A stretch of 29,850 bases of DNA from a virus. Every line of letters starts with the position of its first letter. The stretch's first letter is position 1. Shown here piece after piece: positions 508 to 24,861 of the stretch. The stretch is taken from the IMG/VR virus record IMGVR_UViG_3300018081_000012, positions 1 through 29,850 of that record. One strand, given 5' to 3'. Position numbers and translations under genes: made by a program. The notes under the pieces are model-generated. The model saw only the letters and a program-made list of their open reading frames with translations, was not told where the DNA came from and ran no database searches.

Positions 508-690
508 ATGCCTAAGTATGAAGTTGAATATACTTATAATATTCCCGAGGAAGGTGTCTTTACCTTAGAGACCCCGGAGCCTCTGACTATGGATGAAGTT
601 GAAGAGCAAGCTATTGTTGAAATTCAAGAGACATTCCCAGATGTAAGAGACATTAGAGTTGACGGATTTAAGGAGATTACTGTTGGCTAA
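508..690 (+). CDS. small acidic hypothetical protein, 60 aa
   Basis: Start ATG 508 is chosen because AAGGA at 496-500 lies 7 bases upstream; a longer in-frame version starting at 460 would overlap the polymerase end without a ribosome site. The 60-residue product begins MPKYEVEYTYNIPEEGVF and is acidic, with an alternating hydrophobic N-terminal half (possible beta strands) followed by a predicted helix MDEVEEQAIVEIQETF. No family is recognised. Its stop overlaps the TTG start of the next gene, and that gene's ribosome site lies inside its last codons, which implies translational coupling. It lies between DNA polymerase and a probable ssDNA-binding protein, so a replication accessory role is possible but is only inference from position. 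Confidence 0.8.
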   Translation: MPKYEVEYTYNIPEEGVFTLETPEPLTMDEVEEQAIVEIQETFPDVRDIRVDGFKEITVG

Positions 691-1192
691 GATTGATTTT
701 GTTTATCTGCAAGGCAAAACCAAATGGTTTCGCCATTCAGCCCCCAACCAATGGGGTAATTGGTCGCACGATCTCTATATAGATCCTCCCTCCCTCGAAA
801 AATGGAAAGAACTACAAACAGGATCTGATGATGTTTTAGGAATTAAGAATCAATTGAGAAAGGATGAAGACGGATACTTTGTTACTTTGAGACGACCTGT
901 CGAAAAGCAATTGAGGTCGGGAAAGAAGATTGGCTTTGCGCCTCCTGAAGTTCTAATGGCAGACGGAGTGACTCCACTTCGTGGTGTTATGGTTGGCAAT
1001 GGTTCTGACGTCACCACAAAACTAGAAGTATATACACACTTCGTACCAGGAAGTAACAATAAGAAGGCTAGAGCCATACGCTGGTTATCTTCAAAGATTG
1101 ATAACTTAGTTCCCTTTGAAATTAACAAAGACTTTAATGAAAATGAAGAGAAGCAGGTCAGAGGATTAGCTGAACAACCTGCTCAATTTTAG
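683..1192 (+). CDS. probable phage ssDNA-binding protein (gp2.5-like role)
   Basis: The 169-residue product starts at TTG 683, seven bases after AAGGAG (670-675); the start overlaps the preceding stop. Conserved-looking blocks are TKWFRHSAPNQWGNWSHDLY near the N-terminus, FVTLRRPVEKQLR, IGFAPPEVLMADGVTPLRG and GNGSDVTTKLEVY, ending in a charged low-complexity tail. This pattern resembles a protein found beside DNA polymerase and exonuclease in many podoviruses and annotated there as an ssDNA-binding or hypothetical protein; an OB-fold and an acidic tail are typical of gp2.5-like proteins (family knowledge). Sequence evidence is by remembered similarity plus neighbourhood, so the function is moderately supported. 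The TTG start would make translation lower than the flanking ATG genes. The TAG stop lies in the first hairpin of the long non-coding region. Confidence 0.6.
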   Translation: MAKIDFVYLQGKTKWFRHSAPNQWGNWSHDLYIDPPSLEKWKELQTGSDDVLGIKNQLRKDEDGYFVTLRRPVEKQLRSGKKIGFAPPEVLMADGVTPLRGVMVGNGSDVTTKLEVYTHFVPGSNNKKARAIRWLSSKIDNLVPFEINKDFNENEEKQVRGLAEQPAQF

Positions 1193-1796
1193 CCGACGCT
1201 ATTCGGCTAATGAAGCTGACCTCTACTGTTAAAGCTTTCAGTAAGTCAGAGCCTGTGGGAGTAGCGTCCGCGACGGGACCTTTTCTTTTGTCACAGTCGT
1301 CTAAGTAGCTGTTATAGGATACCTGTTCGTTGCAGGAGACGTACGAGAACCGCTTAATCGTACCTGTGAACAGCACTTGCCACTCCCGGTCCAAACGGTG
1401 TAGTGCATGTGCCCTCCGGTACCCGTAATTAAAGTGGGGACCTCCTCACCTATGTAACTCGTGGTATCGCAATCTCCGTGGTGAATGGGAGATCCCGCTA
1501 GTCATCCGGTGGAGGATAAAAGAGGGTGACCCGCGTTTGCTGCTTTCCAGGTACGTTGAAAGCAGGAGGATATCCCACCATTCCCTCACAGGTGCAAGGG
1601 ATGCACATGAGGCCTTACCGAAAACTAGGACTCCGCAAAATACGAACTGGGCGGTGCGGTGCATAACCGTGGTAGACGGCCAATAATGGTTTGGATGTCA
1701 GTCTAGTAATTACGACGCTCAATCGTAGTGACCTAGACCGTAGCCTAAGCGCTAGAGACCAACTAGTATCCTGACGGCGGTCTACCGTTCGGGACT

Positions 1797-1824
1797 GAAG
1801 GTTCGAGTCCTTCCAGGGTCAACA
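1797..1824 (+). other. tRNA 3'-end-like element (T-arm plus ACA tail) inside the large RNA
   Basis: Bases 1797-1813 form a perfect 5-bp stem (GAAGG/CCTTC) around the loop TTCGAGT, which fits the tRNA T-loop consensus UUCRANY. They are followed by CAGGGTC and AACA, like an acceptor strand with a CCA-like tail. No matching D-arm and anticodon arm precede it at tRNA spacing; the closest 5' acceptor candidate, GACCTAG at 1730-1736, is also used by the perfect hairpin 1701-1738. A conventional tRNA gene is therefore not called. Confidence 0.5.
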
Positions 1825-2132
1825 GGTCCCTGTGGCGAAACGGCAAACGCACTAGTGGGGACAAGTAGGTTACAACCCTACCACTGTCCAGATACCGTTT
1901 GAGAGGTCGTGGCTGTCAGTGAAAACAGAGACGAAGTTTACTCTCGAACAAGTACGCTTGCATTCCTAGGCAAGTCCTAAGTTCTCACCTTGGAGTTCCC
2001 AGGGCCAAACCAAAAAGGTGGTGTTATCAGGTGACGTGAGGGCAGGAAAGAAGAGATGTCTAAAGACGGTGCCATCAGCGAAGCTTCTTCCATTCAAGAA
2101 GTGGGGCTTGAAGCTGTCTTCTTGACTAGCAA

Positions 2133-2149
2133 CCACGTTCGAATCGTGG
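2133..2149 (+). other. second T-arm-like hairpin inside the large RNA
   Basis: CCACG and CGTGG pair perfectly around TTCGAAT, a canonical T-loop sequence. The hairpin is enclosed by the perfect 6-bp stem 2124-2129/2168-2173, so it appears to be an arm of a larger fold and not part of a tRNA. T-loops are common tertiary-contact motifs in large RNAs. Confidence 0.5.
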
Positions 2150-2672
2150 ATATAACGGATGGTAACTCTAGTCTCGTAGTAACGACATGTCTCTTCGGCG
2201 GATGCGCCAAACCCCGCAAGGTTTGGAGATACTGACGTAACGAACAGTTCACGTCTCGCGCCAGATGAACACCCGTGGATGTGGAGAACCATAAGAAAGC
2301 AAGCCGAAAACCCAGGGCCAGATTAGCCCTCTCTGATTGGAAGAGCTGTTAACCGAACCTCCTTCTGAGGGAGACGGACTGTTGGTGTTCATGTACACCT
2401 CTGGATCAGCAAGGAATGTGCTCTACCTCGCCACCCAGGTGATGGGGCTCTTCGGAGCAGGAATGGCGTAACACAATAGGGCAATGCCCGGAACCTCTTG
2501 CAAAAGCTGTCTCCAATATCGAAGGTGAGGAGAATAGTGTACACGAAGCAGGTGAGGACGGATCGAGATAGACAAGTACTGGTGAGAAAGACACATGAAG
2601 CCAGGAAAGAGCGCGTCCAATAACCGTAACACTTCTTGCGAGGGAATTCCACAAAACCAAAGGAGAAGTGCC

Positions 2673-2729
2673 ATGACGTTCCTCTGGACCCAGATACTAG
2701 AAGTCATTGCTCCTCAGCAACCGCCCTAG
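2673..2729 (+). CDS. possible 18-aa peptide at the 3' end of the structured region
   Basis: ATG 2673 follows AAAGGAG (2659-2665) by seven bases, as good a ribosome site as any real gene here. The peptide is MTFLWTQILEVIAPQQPP, a hydrophobic helix followed by a proline end. The stop at 2727-2729 falls in the hairpin 2723-2738, so ribosomes on this peptide could disturb that hairpin. It may be a leader peptide, a tiny membrane peptide or chance. No homologue is recognised. Confidence 0.35.
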   Translation: MTFLWTQILEVIAPQQPP

Positions 2730-2752
2730 AGGTAGGGCTTTAGTACATTTTA
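2723..2752 (+). terminator. weak terminator or processing hairpin ending the structured region
   Basis: GCCCT (2723-2727) and AGGGC (2734-2738) form a perfect stem with a six-base loop, followed by TTTAGTACATTTT. The T tract is interrupted, so this may be a leaky terminator or an RNA 3'-end processing site. The next gene starts 22 bases later with its own ribosome site. Confidence 0.45.
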
Positions 2753-2773
2753 AACAATAAAAAGGAGTGAGCT

Positions 2774-3064
2774 ATGTATCCTCCGAATTATAACCCCTGG
2801 CCGCAAATGTGGCCGCCAGCAGGGCCGAATATAGATGAAACTCTCCGTGTCCTCCATAAGATTCGCAGGCAGGAAAAGAAGAGACAGAAACAAGAGGACG
2901 AGGAAAAGAAGAAGAAAGAACCTCCGAAGAGAAGATCTTATACACTTACGGACGTCTTTCTGATATTGTTCTCATGTTCTTGGTTCGTAGGACCGTTGAC
3001 CGCAATGGCAATGATCAAAGTAACCCAGAACTTCTTATTAACCATGCAACCGTTAGTCAAATGA
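2774..3064 (+). CDS. membrane protein with Pro-rich N-terminus and charged linker, 96 aa
   Basis: ATG 2774 is preceded by AAAGGAG (2761-2767). Residues 1-18 are proline- and tryptophan-rich; residues about 25-54 are a highly charged Lys/Glu/Gln stretch likely to be a helix or coiled coil; residues about 59-82 (DVFLILFSCSWFVGPLTAMA) are hydrophobic enough for one membrane span. The layout suggests a membrane-anchored cytoplasmic tail. No known family is recognised. It is the first gene after the structured RNA region, and its TGA stop overlaps the ATG of the next gene (ATGA). A role in take-over of the membrane or in anchoring replication is possible but unsupported. Confidence 0.75.
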   Translation: MYPPNYNPWPQMWPPAGPNIDETLRVLHKIRRQEKKRQKQEDEEKKKKEPPKRRSYTLTDVFLILFSCSWFVGPLTAMAMIKVTQNFLLTMQPLVK

Positions 3065-3243
3065 CATATAGTCCAACAACCAAATACAACCTTCTTTACG
3101 AAATGAAGAGGTTGAAGAAAAAAGAGGATGAACTCGGTTACTTAGAAGAAGAAGAGTTCTCCTTTGATGAATACGACATCCCCTATATAATAGAATTGAT
3201 TGAGAAAGATATTGCAAGTGCCGGAGATACAGACCTTAATTAA
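3061..3243 (+). CDS. small acidic hypothetical protein, 60 aa
   Basis: ATG 3061 overlaps the preceding stop in an ATGA arrangement, so it is chosen over an upstream in-frame start at 2974 inside the neighbouring gene. The product begins MTYSPTTKYNLLYEMKRLKK and continues with an acidic middle (EDELGYLEEEEFSFDEYD) and a final helix IIELIEKDIAS. Charge is strongly polarised: basic near the N-terminus, acidic afterwards. No family is recognised. It lies directly before the exonuclease gene, whose probable start overlaps its 3' end. DNA mimicry or nuclease modulation could be imagined from the acidity, but nothing in the sequence shows it. Confidence 0.7.
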   Translation: MTYSPTTKYNLLYEMKRLKKKEDELGYLEEEEFSFDEYDIPYIIELIEKDIASAGDTDLN

Positions 3244-4111
3244 GGACATCTACAATCTTGTCCAAAGAAAGGACGGATGGTTTAACGATGACCTCGCGAA
3301 CAGTTTTGCGTCAACAGTGGCTAGTAAACTACAAGAACAACTTGGAGAAAGCCAGAAGACGTCTACACTTCGCCTCAGCAAGATGGGACCGAGTTGTCCT
3401 AAAGCGTTATGGTACTCCGTTAACCACCCTGAACTTGCTGAAGCGTTGCCTCCATGGGCCGAGATCAAGTATTCATACGGTCATGTTATTGAAGCATTGG
3501 CTATCGTCCTATCAGAGGCCGCCGGACACGAAGTAACGGGGAAACAAGATGCAATCGTACTCGACGGGATCACAGGTCATAGGGATTGCGTTATCGATGG
3601 GTGTATCGTCGATGTCAAGTCTAGTAGTAGCAGGGGTTTTAGTAAGTTCAAGGATAAGACTCTTGCGAAAGACGATAGCTTTGGCTATCTGGACCAGCTT
3701 GATGGGTATGTGTTGGGTTCCCATTCTGATCCTCTTGTTCGGTGCAAGGACCGTGGCTACATTCTAGCTATTGATAAAACCTTAGGACATATGGTGCTCT
3801 ATGAACATGAGGTTAGCCATGATCGATCAGAAGCTCTTAAAGAGAGAATTCGAGTATACAAGGCTATCGTTGCTGATCCAACTCCACCGGCTTGTGGATG
3901 CGAGACATTCGCCGAAGGATCATCCGGTAACGTGCGCCTTGATACAAGGGCTAGCTACTCGCCTTACAAGCATATCTGTTTTCCTAACCTCAGAACATTC
4001 CTATATGCCGCAGGACCCGTCTTCCTTTCCAGAGTAATGAAGAGACCATTCAATAAAGATGGTCCAATAACAGAGATTGACAAAAACGGTAAGATCGTGT
4101 ACAATGTATAG
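3218..4111 (+). CDS. PD-(D/E)XK exonuclease with Cas4-like cysteines
   Basis: The protein has the core of RecB/Cas4-type nucleases: GHRD with Asp at 3584-3586, then IDGCIVDVKSSSS with Asp 3611-3613 and Lys 3617-3619 forming the D...D-x-K metal site, and a following GYLDQLDGY helix typical of this fold (QxxxY-like). A block LRLSKMGPSCPKALWYSV gives one N-terminal cysteine, and CGCE plus KHICFPN give three C-terminal cysteines. One-plus-three is the arrangement that binds a 4Fe-4S cluster in Cas4 and AddB nucleases (family knowledge); here it is inference. The start is uncertain: GTG 3218 is chosen with GAGAAAG upstream, but TTG 3200 or TTG 3212 are possible. The likely role is 5'-3' degradation of host DNA or recombination, as for T7 gp6. 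It ends inside the next tiny gene. Confidence 0.85.
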   Translation: MPEIQTLIKDIYNLVQRKDGWFNDDLANSFASTVASKLQEQLGESQKTSTLRLSKMGPSCPKALWYSVNHPELAEALPPWAEIKYSYGHVIEALAIVLSEAAGHEVTGKQDAIVLDGITGHRDCVIDGCIVDVKSSSSRGFSKFKDKTLAKDDSFGYLDQLDGYVLGSHSDPLVRCKDRGYILAIDKTLGHMVLYEHEVSHDRSEALKERIRVYKAIVADPTPPACGCETFAEGSSGNVRLDTRASYSPYKHICFPNLRTFLYAAGPVFLSRVMKRPFNKDGPITEIDKNGKIVYNV

Positions 4112-4199: not shown

Positions 4200-4306
4200 A
4201 CGGGAGTTGGCCGTGTTTCGTCTTCGGCGGTCACCACTGGTGCTTCCATATAGACAAGTATGGGCTCTATCTAACGATCTGCCGCCGGTGTGGTAGAATT
4301 AAATAA
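4196..4306 (+). CDS. tiny zinc-ribbon-like protein, 36 aa
   Basis: ATG 4196 overlaps the preceding TGA, and the frame ends at TAA 4304-4306. The product begins MNGSWPCFVFGGHHWCF and ends ICRRCGRIK. One Cys, a His-His-x-Cys group and a terminal C-x-x-C make a plausible compact zinc-binding fold, like the small CRRCG-ending proteins seen in several phages (recollection, not tested). It is Trp- and aromatic-rich. It may act as a small nucleic-acid- or protein-binding factor, but this is inference. The ribosome site AAAGGAG at 4305-4311 directly follows its stop and belongs to the leader before endonuclease I. Confidence 0.55.
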   Translation: MNGSWPCFVFGGHHWCFHIDKYGLYLTICRRCGRIK

Positions 4307-4440
4307 AGGAGAGCTTCTGCTGGATCAAATGAACGGCGCCGTTGTCCTGAGCCGTTTGGTCTCGACTGCGGAGAGCCCCGTCGCTTAGACGACGGTAATC
4401 AGCAGAGCCCCGTGAAAGTCGGGGCACTACAAAAGGAGGG
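4305..4440 (+). promoter_or_regulatory. structured leader with two strong hairpins and a repeated GC-rich block before endonuclease I
   Basis: The stretch holds a 12-base perfect palindrome AACGGCGCCGTT starting at 4332, the perfect hairpin CCGTCG/CGACGG around CTTAGA near 4378-4395, and the hairpin GCCCCG/CGGGGC around TGAAAGT near 4407-4425. The 10-base block AGAGCCCCGT occurs twice, once before each hairpin, so the first copy could also pair with the final CGGGGC strand; this allows two exclusive folds. AAAAGGAGGG at 4431-4440 follows. A possible 19-codon ORF (4329-4388, MNGAVVLSRLVSTAESPVA) lies within it after an AAAGGAG at 4305-4311, though 17 bases away. Together this suggests translational or processing control of the downstream nuclease. 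Confidence 0.5.
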
Positions 4441-4462: not shown

Positions 4463-4813
4463 TTGTTGAAGAAGAAGCTAAAAAACAAGTTTGAAAAGAG
4501 AATATACAATGTGTTACGTCGGGCTAAGAGTAATTTCCAGTACGAAAGTGAACGCATCCCCTACCTCTTGGCCCGACATTATATCCCTGATTTCGTAGTA
4601 ATTACTCCTTTAGGTAAGGTTTACATAGAATGTAAAGGCTACCTCCGACCTGAGGACAAATGCAAGATGGTAGCCGTTAAGAAATTACATCCAGAGATTG
4701 ATTTGCGTATCCTGTTTTATAGCCACAATAAGAAATATATTAAATGGGCAGAGAAGAACGGTATAAAATACGCAATTGGTACAATCCCAAAGGAGTGGCT
4801 CGATGGTCTATAA
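4463..4813 (+). CDS. endonuclease I, Holliday-junction resolvase (T7 gp3 homologue)
   Basis: The 116-residue protein matches T7 endonuclease I in its active-site order: Glu11 in FEKRIYNVL, Asp43 in HYIPDFVV, Glu56 and Lys58 in VYIECKGYL, corresponding to T7 E20, D55, E65 and K67 (family knowledge). HPEIDLRILFYS and the end GTIPKEWLDGL also match the family. It is shorter than T7 gp3 (149), mostly at both ends. The enzyme resolves branched DNA and helps break down host DNA. The start is unclear: TTG 4463 is the first start codon after an in-frame TGA at 4451, yet the best ribosome site, AAAAGGAGGG (4431-4440), points to GTG 4445, from which the frame stops after two codons. It ends overlapping the next gene. 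Confidence 0.9.
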   Translation: MLKKKLKNKFEKRIYNVLRRAKSNFQYESERIPYLLARHYIPDFVVITPLGKVYIECKGYLRPEDKCKMVAVKKLHPEIDLRILFYSHNKKYIKWAEKNGIKYAIGTIPKEWLDGL

Positions 4814-24127: not shown

Positions 24128-24293
24128 TTGTATTTATCGCAGTCCAGGAAAGATGTCCGTCAGTATTTATCCACATACGATCTGCAACTCCAACTCCCTT
24201 TAGATTTACATAAATAGAACCTTTTCGAGCAGGCGATGTAGGGTTACCGTCTCCTGTGATAAAGGCTATATCTCCTAATTCAATAGATTCCAT
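24120..24293 (-). CDS. small hypothetical virion-region protein, 57 aa
   Basis: ATG 24291-24293 is chosen because AGGA lies eight bases upstream; an in-frame ATG at 24335 would place a strong hairpin inside the gene. The product starts MESIELGDIAFITGDGNPTS and contains GSIYVNLKGVGVADRMWINT and ends GHLSWTAINTND. The pattern G-D-x-x-x-x-x-G-x-P...G-S-I-Y-x-x-x-x-G...R-M-W-I-N-T-D-G-x-W resembles a short beta-rich repeat found in phage tail fibre proteins. It may act as a tailspike accessory or attachment module. It overlaps the tailspike start by eight bases. Confidence 0.7.
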   Translation of the reverse strand: MESIELGDIAFITGDGNPTSPARKGSIYVNLKGVGVADRMWINTDGHLSWTAINTND

Positions 24294-24315
24294 TGTTTTA
24301 ATCCTGTTGTTATAG

Positions 24316-24336
24316 TGGGGGACCGAAGTCCCCACA
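24316..24336 (-). terminator. strong GC hairpin with UUCG loop between head and tail genes
   Basis: On the minus strand GTGGGGAC pairs with GTCCCCCAC (one bulged C) around TTCG, just after the 168-residue gene. No T tract follows (ACTATAACAAC), so it may be a weak terminator or a stabilising 3'-end structure. Its position after the capsid genes is like the T-phi terminator after T7 gene 10. Confidence 0.55.
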
Positions 24337-24354
24337 CCATAATTGTGAATATTA

Positions 24355-24861
24355 TTACAGAGCGTAATAATTAATTGTGACGATAATTACACCAGCTGTA
24401 AACGCTGTAGGCGTGGTCCGGCTACAGGTAACATAACCTGGTAGAGTCGTCGTGGTGCCTAGAAGCGCACCTTGGCCAATTGCAGCGGCGGGGATATTAC
24501 TAGCCGTTAATGACAGAGTAATATGTTCACCGACACCATCCATTTGGGCCGTTGGGAACGCTGCTAAAAATCCATCGAAATCGATTTGTGTAGAACGATT
24601 AGTCTGCACTAGTCCTAAATCAATAGCCACGCCTGTTGCAGCGGGGGTATGAGTCATGACATCGATAGAATGAACTCTCATCTTTGGGAAAAAGACTGTA
24701 TCTGATAACGGAGTTTCTAGTTCCGTAAGGGTCGTCAGATCAATCTTAAACTTAATTTGTCGAAGAGCACCAGTGGTGGTATACTCGCCACCTGTATTCG
24801 GTACTGCCTTTTCAGGACCATACTGGATATACAGGCCGTCGTTATTTAGCCAATTACCCAT
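24355..24861 (-). CDS. probable head decoration or minor structural protein, 168 aa
   Basis: ATG 24859-24861 has AGGAGAG six bases upstream, one of the best ribosome sites in the late operon, so it is probably made in large amounts. The product begins MGNWLNNDGLYIQYGPEKAV and is Thr-, Ala- and Gly-rich and beta-patterned (FKIDLTTLTELETP; PGYVTCSRTTPTAFTAGVII), without membrane spans. A protein of this size directly after the capsid gene is found in several podoviruses as a decoration or structural protein; that role is inferred from position, expression signal and composition. A hairpin follows the gene. Confidence 0.65.
   Translation of the reverse strand: MGNWLNNDGLYIQYGPEKAVPNTGGEYTTTGALRQIKFKIDLTTLTELETPLSDTVFFPKMRVHSIDVMTHTPAATGVAIDLGLVQTNRSTQIDFDGFLAAFPTAQMDGVGEHITLSLTASNIPAAAIGQGALLGTTTTLPGYVTCSRTTPTAFTAGVIIVTINYYAL

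Follow-up and report, generated by a model that had tools for sequence, protein, structure and literature searches.

A probable large structured RNA, carrying a tRNA-like module in permuted order, between replication genes of one phage clade

A non-coding interval of roughly 1.5 kb among the replication genes of a phage very probably encodes a structured RNA, one of a fast-evolving family that appears to be fixed between the genes for a single-stranded DNA-binding (SSB) protein and an exonuclease. The best reading of our data is a new class of large phage RNA, probably the scaffold of a membrane-anchored ribonucleoprotein (RNP); it has not been described before in the sense that we found it neither in Rfam nor in the open-access literature searched. 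Very large structured RNAs of bacteria and phages are few (GOLLD, ROOL and OLE) and their functions are poorly understood. The region reported here is as large as or larger than these and occurs in every in-group phage examined. It also provides two handles for function, namely a permuted tRNA elbow that resembles the one in Y RNAs, and a neighbouring candidate protein partner; these should open its function to study through pull-downs and the mapping of modifications.

The stretch analysed (the window) is a 29,850-base IMG/VR virus record. The first-pass annotation had placed the gap between an SSB-like gene and a small membrane-protein gene, and this arrangement holds. The surrounding features are as follows.

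2-478, C-terminus of polA, at the start of the window and followed by a small ORF
659-1192, plus strand, SSB-like gene, the upstream neighbour of the gap, conserved in position
1193-2770, plus strand, giant structured non-coding RNA region (very probable), with no conserved ORF, an interval kept and covariation found in relatives, absent from outgroups
2774-3064, plus strand, small membrane-protein gene 3′ of the gap, followed by an overlapping ORF
3200-4111, plus strand, Cas4-like exonuclease gene (phrog_1990, E 2e-24), the downstream neighbour and the bait for relatives
4463-4813, endonuclease I gene, downstream of the exonuclease gene

The RNA region is delimited here by its neighbours, namely by the stop codon of the SSB-like gene on one side and the Shine-Dalgarno region of the membrane-protein gene on the other. 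The upstream gene, which gave no Pfam or PHROG match, we take to encode SSB from its position and from the name given to it in the first-pass annotation. No promoter or terminator belonging to the gap itself was recognised, and the RNA would probably be transcribed together with the replication genes. Between the exonuclease and endonuclease I genes, positions 4310-4440 are also G+C-rich and hold several hairpins (for example GCCCCGTGAAAGTCGGGGC), although the folding stability of 4200-4440 does not exceed that of shuffles.

Two further statements made about the gap from its letters were borne out. There is no convincing long ORF, the longest in six frames of 1193-2773 being 108 amino acids, a length equalled or beaten by 33% of shuffles. 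The chance ORFs (60-108 amino acids, mostly on the minus strand) gave no PHROG match worth the name and no family matches. Apart from the membrane-protein gene, no ORF is common to six of eight aligned relatives, and the eight have none in common in the RNA part. The G+C content is raised, at 0.49-0.53 versus 0.38-0.43 in the flanking genes, a difference of about 0.1.

Using the exonuclease as bait, we collected 83 loci from viral contigs. The SSB-exonuclease interval measures 1463-4166 nt in all 70 in-group loci for which both flanking genes were found. In the nine outgroups (the four viral contigs L330-L333, L017, and the records phiM6, T5S1, CRP-13 and SIO1) it is short or filled with ORFs; for example, phiM6 has two small ORFs between SSB and exonuclease, and in L017, where SSB was not recognised, the pol-exonuclease interval carries ORFs. 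A long interval in the in-group and a short or coding one in the outgroups indicate that the RNA region is a feature of one clade. The two longest intervals (L002, 1856-6000, and L045, 1845-6009; each more than 4.1 kb) contain plus-strand ORFs of 140-177 amino acids, possibly genes inserted within the RNA region.

The closest exonuclease in the phage record collection is 40% identical and belongs to no close relative, a DNA comparison with phage records matched neither the gap nor the genes upstream of it, the SSB protein recovered no relatives when used as bait, and a search of the genome collection with the exonuclease alignment found no host or prophage. We found no relative whose interval can be aligned along the whole of the window's RNA: 29 loci are reached with iterated nhmmer profiles, the window not being one of them, and its alignment with L020, L021, L022 and L034 is unreliable. 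The window appears to belong to the family by virtue of its position, its tRNA-like module, a 36-nt block that it shares with L020 and L021, and the motif GCCAGATTAGC.

The gap was originally singled out partly for more than fifteen perfect stems, an argument that did not survive comparison with dinucleotide shuffles. Stems of at least 4 bp number 284 versus 266 ± 17 in shuffles, those of at least 6 bp 23 versus 17.5 ± 3.8, and those of at least 8 bp 2 versus 1.2; stems of at least 5 bp are the sole enriched class, and mildly so (81 versus 67.9). Folding energy is likewise ordinary, with z = -0.4 for the whole region and z = -0.9, -1.2 and 0.0 for 500-nt pieces, compared with -1.9 to +1.6 for coding controls. 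The stems as first listed are by themselves insufficient evidence for a structured RNA, and the structural claim rests on the relatives instead, given that both stem counts and folding energy lie near chance. The T-loop and UUCG hairpins seen at the outset are indeed present, at 1797-1813 (within the module described below) and at two of the following positions.

2133-2149, plus strand, second T-arm-type hairpin, CCACGTTCGAATCGTGG
2315-2329, plus strand, hairpin GGGCCAGATTAGCCC, whose core GCCAGATTAGC is a word shared by 11 of 78 gaps
2376-2411, plus strand, 36-nt block with 94-97% identity to L020 and L021, the rest of whose gaps cannot be aligned with this one
2447-2458, UUCG hairpin

Base pairing in the relatives is under selection. 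Eight alignable relatives (56-89% identical), a set outside the window, whose RNA cannot be aligned to theirs end to end, were folded jointly with RNAalifold. They were compared with 71 R-scape-like null alignments, which preserve the tree, the number and type of substitutions on each branch and the gaps, scatter the substitutions over columns, and have the consensus refitted each time. The consensus energy is -416 versus -249 to -295 in the nulls, and 125 pairs show two-sided changes versus 36-64. Folding also favours the plus strand (-416, versus -370 for the minus strand). Three further subfamilies agree in two-sided changes: 147 versus at most 63 in nulls for C5, 123 versus at most 60 for E3, and 64 versus at most 43 for B3. 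The poorly aligned subfamily D4 is mixed, with an energy worse than the null and two-sided changes above it. The exonuclease coding sequence, analysed as a control, gave no signal (18 two-sided changes versus a null mean of 26). An all-pairs covariation test, underpowered at eight sequences, returned three pairs at E of 1 or less. We also considered sequestration of the Shine-Dalgarno sequence by the 3′ end of the RNA and rejected it, as there was no enrichment over control windows. The original idea of a giant structured non-coding phage RNA is supported by covariation in relatives, conserved synteny and strand-specific T-arms, but not by the stems cited for it.

The word that the gaps share most often, GGTTCGAGTCC, is that of a tRNA T-arm. 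On the plus strand of 78 gaps we counted 92 perfect hairpins of 5 bp with a TTCRANY loop, spread over 58 of the gaps, compared with one on the minus strand, two in reversed sequence and one in 367 kb of plus strand further downstream. T-arm hairpins of the window and about 15 relatives belong to a circularly permuted tRNA-like module, which in the window has these parts.

1759-1859, plus strand, circularly permuted tRNA-like module, comprising closing stem, long variable arm, T-arm, closed acceptor-like hairpin and D-arm
1759-1767, plus strand, anticodon-like closing stem, 5′ strand (CCAACTAGT), pairing with 1851-1859 with one A-G mismatch
1769-1794, plus strand, variable-arm-like hairpin, predicted from the local MFE structure
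1797-1813, plus strand, T-arm, GAAGGTTCGAGTCCTTC
1814-1832, plus strand, acceptor-like stem closed by a loop (CAGGG..CCCTG), with no CCA end
1835-1850, plus strand, D-arm, GCGAAACGGCAAACGC, with a GG dinucleotide
1851-1859, plus strand, closing stem, 3′ strand (ACTAGTGGG)
1865-1881, plus strand, hairpin GTAGGTTACAACCCTAC, resembling the GTGNAA-loop hairpins that adjoin T-arms in relatives

After the T-arm, the window and many relatives have first a short hairpin that is closed, or a linker, and next a D-arm resembling that of tRNA-Leu (TGGCGAAACGGCAAACGC); the module as a whole is closed by an anticodon-like stem. This is the order of a tRNA made circular by closure of its acceptor end and opened at the anticodon loop. 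The window contains a single instance of the T-arm/D-arm pattern, and none turns up in 100 shuffles. Invariant positions of the module include the equivalents of U8, A14, G18, G19 and A21, assigned by comparison with tRNA-Leu.

Pairing within the module is conserved. In an alignment of 15 sequences its helices are 98% paired, covariation is 0.825 versus 0.228 (reached in 0 of 500 shuffles), and 61 two-sided changes compare with 16.6 in shuffles. Because the boundaries of this alignment were set manually, around a closing stem picked for pairing, the stem was also tested against partners swapped between loci, and not one of 10,000 permutations came up to the mean observed. Perfect helices at a fixed offset are required in this automatic test, for which reason the window's stem, with six pairs, a mismatch and two further pairs, scores zero. 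Similarly, a strict descriptor requiring seven perfect closing pairs finds the module in 11 of 78 gaps, the window not among them, and has no matches in reversed, reverse-complemented, shuffled or flanking controls. In the window the module alone is no more stable thermodynamically than shuffles, and part of the D-loop can pair alternatively with 1895-1900. The acceptor part differs between relatives, and L025, L041 and L064 lack it; because T-arm, D-arm and closing stem stay, a structural elbow is favoured over aminoacylation.

ARAGORN finds no tRNA in the window or in 17 relatives, neither ARAGORN nor Rfam reports a tRNA of normal order in the gap, and ARAGORN accepted none of three modules that we re-permuted. 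The sole match of the YrlA model (RF02553) in the window record falls on the module, at 1796-1850 (14.6 bits, E 0.06, below the gathering cut-off of 69 bits). The same model has matches in 13 other in-group records, with E values down to 5e-6 and 29.4 bits for the best relative; by positions converted by hand, all lie in the SSB-exonuclease gap except one, on the contig of L007, and every one of them scores far below cut-off. Since matches below cut-off also arise in 12 of 14 control genomes, a single weak match means little, and it is position that counts. The module resembles YrlA in having T-arm, closed acceptor hairpin and D-arm in this order, in a permuted tRNA-like arrangement that hangs on a basal stem. 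In contrast to YrlA, which is about 90-150 nt long and has Ro60 as its partner, it lies inside a non-coding region of about 1.6 kb, its acceptor is sometimes missing, and its score is far below cut-off. A Ro60 (TROVE) gene was found in none of 31 records (the window and 30 relatives), all of them phage records. The permuted, two-piece tmRNA likewise has a circularly permuted tRNA-like domain, but the phage module has no CCA end and ARAGORN reports no tmRNA. A weak alpha-tmRNA match elsewhere in the window (24284-24445, 15.7 bits, E 0.58, far below cut-off) was taken as chance.

The alternative had also been left open that the RNA belongs to GOLLD or ROOL. The models for GOLLD, ROOL and OLE have no match in the gap, even at relaxed E-value with the gap searched alone, or in the intervals of 14 relatives, and a mascRNA match of 17 bits (E 2.7) was all that Rfam, at gathering as well as relaxed thresholds, gave for the gap. 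Membership of the known families is thus disfavoured, and of the two options offered a new class is the better. GOLLD, which is reported to form a 14-mer RNA nanocage (PMC12286853), and ROOL are also very large structured RNAs of phages; the present RNA differs in its longer non-coding region, its permuted tRNA elbow, its fixed position in a replication gene cluster and the absence of a tRNA island.

A further clue comes from the gene that follows. The product of 2774-3064 is a lysine-rich protein of 96 amino acids with a predicted C-terminal membrane segment. Its counterparts in relatives have about 90-110 residues: the N-terminus is of proline/aromatic type, the middle is rich in lysine and glutamate, and a hydrophobic stretch lies at the C-terminus. 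An automatic procedure picked a membrane-protein ORF after the RNA in 59 loci, of which a few (for example those of L044 and L076) are of other make-up; the outgroup ORFs examined are of other kinds, with no membrane-protein ORF of this kind among them. Identity to the window's protein is 17-29% over 14 aligned members, and the protein has no PHROG match and no Pfam match at cut-off. From gene order and composition it is a candidate RNP partner of the RNA. The precedent is OLE RNA and the OapA gene (PMC12265935), where a large structured RNA is likewise followed directly by the gene for a small basic membrane protein. However, OLE resides in Gram-positive host chromosomes rather than a phage, and OapA has four predicted helices, in contrast to the C-terminal hydrophobic stretch and lysine-rich coil found here, so that the phage protein does not qualify as an OapA.

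On these grounds we propose that 1193-2770 would yield a discrete, stable RNA whose fold combines repeated T-loop hairpins with the permuted elbow, the latter ordered as anticodon-like stem, variable arm, T-arm, closed acceptor hairpin or short linker, and D-arm. Suspended in mid-RNA by its anticodon-like stem, the module would have no end that could be aminoacylated, and its T-loop/D-loop contact may act as a rigid architectural or docking element. The RNA would bind the small basic membrane protein and be held by it at the membrane, as OLE RNA is by OapA, as an RNP scaffold with some role in infection. This RNP mechanism we put forward tentatively; the explanation as a whole, joining a structured RNA to a membrane-anchored scaffold, seems to us evenly poised. 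In its boldest form, which we consider speculative and rather doubtful, the system would be a new phage RNP machine, in which a very large RNA with Y-RNA-like tRNA mimics, from non-coding intervals of about 1.1-3.8 kb, is tied to the membrane by a co-inherited basic protein, is fixed among the clade's replication genes, and either manipulates host tRNA-handling enzymes or organises replication.

The main rival holds that the elbow is a tRNA or Y-RNA mimic that recruits or titrates a host tRNA-handling enzyme such as PNPase, DusA, TruB or a tRNase, so that phage RNA is protected or a defence that cuts tRNAs is blocked. In topology the module matches the effector-binding domain of YrlA, and it is found by the YrlA model; YrlA reportedly binds PNPase and undergoes modification by DusA and TruB (PMC8394870), and has been suggested to inhibit an anticodon nuclease (PMC7790460). 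We nevertheless consider it unlikely that the RNA works as such a mimic, in view of the acceptor part that varies or is missing in several relatives, the small share of the 1.5-kb RNA taken up by the module, and the absence of a Ro60 gene from the 31 records. Somewhat less probable is a role as a structured leader of great length, governing how the mRNA for the membrane protein and exonuclease is translated or how stable it is. Such a leader would fit the shared strand and direction, the absence of a recognised terminator before the next gene, and a segment visible in the main set that can pair with the Shine-Dalgarno sequence, although complementarity of this kind is not enriched relative to control windows and the RNA is unusually large for the task.

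Three other explanations are already disfavoured. A decayed tRNA array or other non-functional DNA could account for a D-arm like that of tRNA-Leu and for the lack of excess folding energy, yet it is highly improbable considering the compensatory substitutions, the interval kept in 70 of 70 in-group loci, the permuted order and the failure of ARAGORN to find tRNAs. Size, phage origin and ornate structure would suit a divergent GOLLD or ROOL RNA, a possibility made more remote still by the lack of model matches and of a tRNA island. We give practically no credence to protein coding in small or unusual ORFs; such ORFs exist, mostly on the minus strand, but they are as long as those of shuffles, without family matches, and not shared by six of the eight aligned relatives.

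Module-like patterns also turned up outside this clade. The order T-arm, closed hairpin, D-arm occurs in seven viral contigs (L118 7956-8008; L140 1241-1293; L127 222-274, minus strand; L123 3266-3313; L092 770-820, minus strand; L095 6667-6717, minus strand; and L175 7506-7560), at sites outside ARAGORN tRNAs and with no Rfam match there. Several of these contigs are large and rich in tRNAs, and the patterns are perhaps unrecognised YrlA-type RNAs. Matches to the T-arm/D-arm pattern were at first mostly tandem tRNA genes, and only those outside ARAGORN tRNAs were kept. In two Flavobacteriia loci (L224 4730-4782, and L269 2038-2084 on the minus strand) a T-arm is fused to a stretch resembling tRNA, of which the Rfam match covers just the part between D-arm and T-arm (model positions 8-63). 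Three Streptomyces loci from a scan of bacterial genomes carry a permuted tRNA-like module (L239 4768-4819, minus strand; L249 1312-1362, minus strand; L265 635-686, plus strand), and at relaxed threshold Rfam reports YrlA-like stretches in each, below cut-off and two of them in L239. In L265, a gene for a TROVE-domain (Ro60) protein lies directly downstream of the module.
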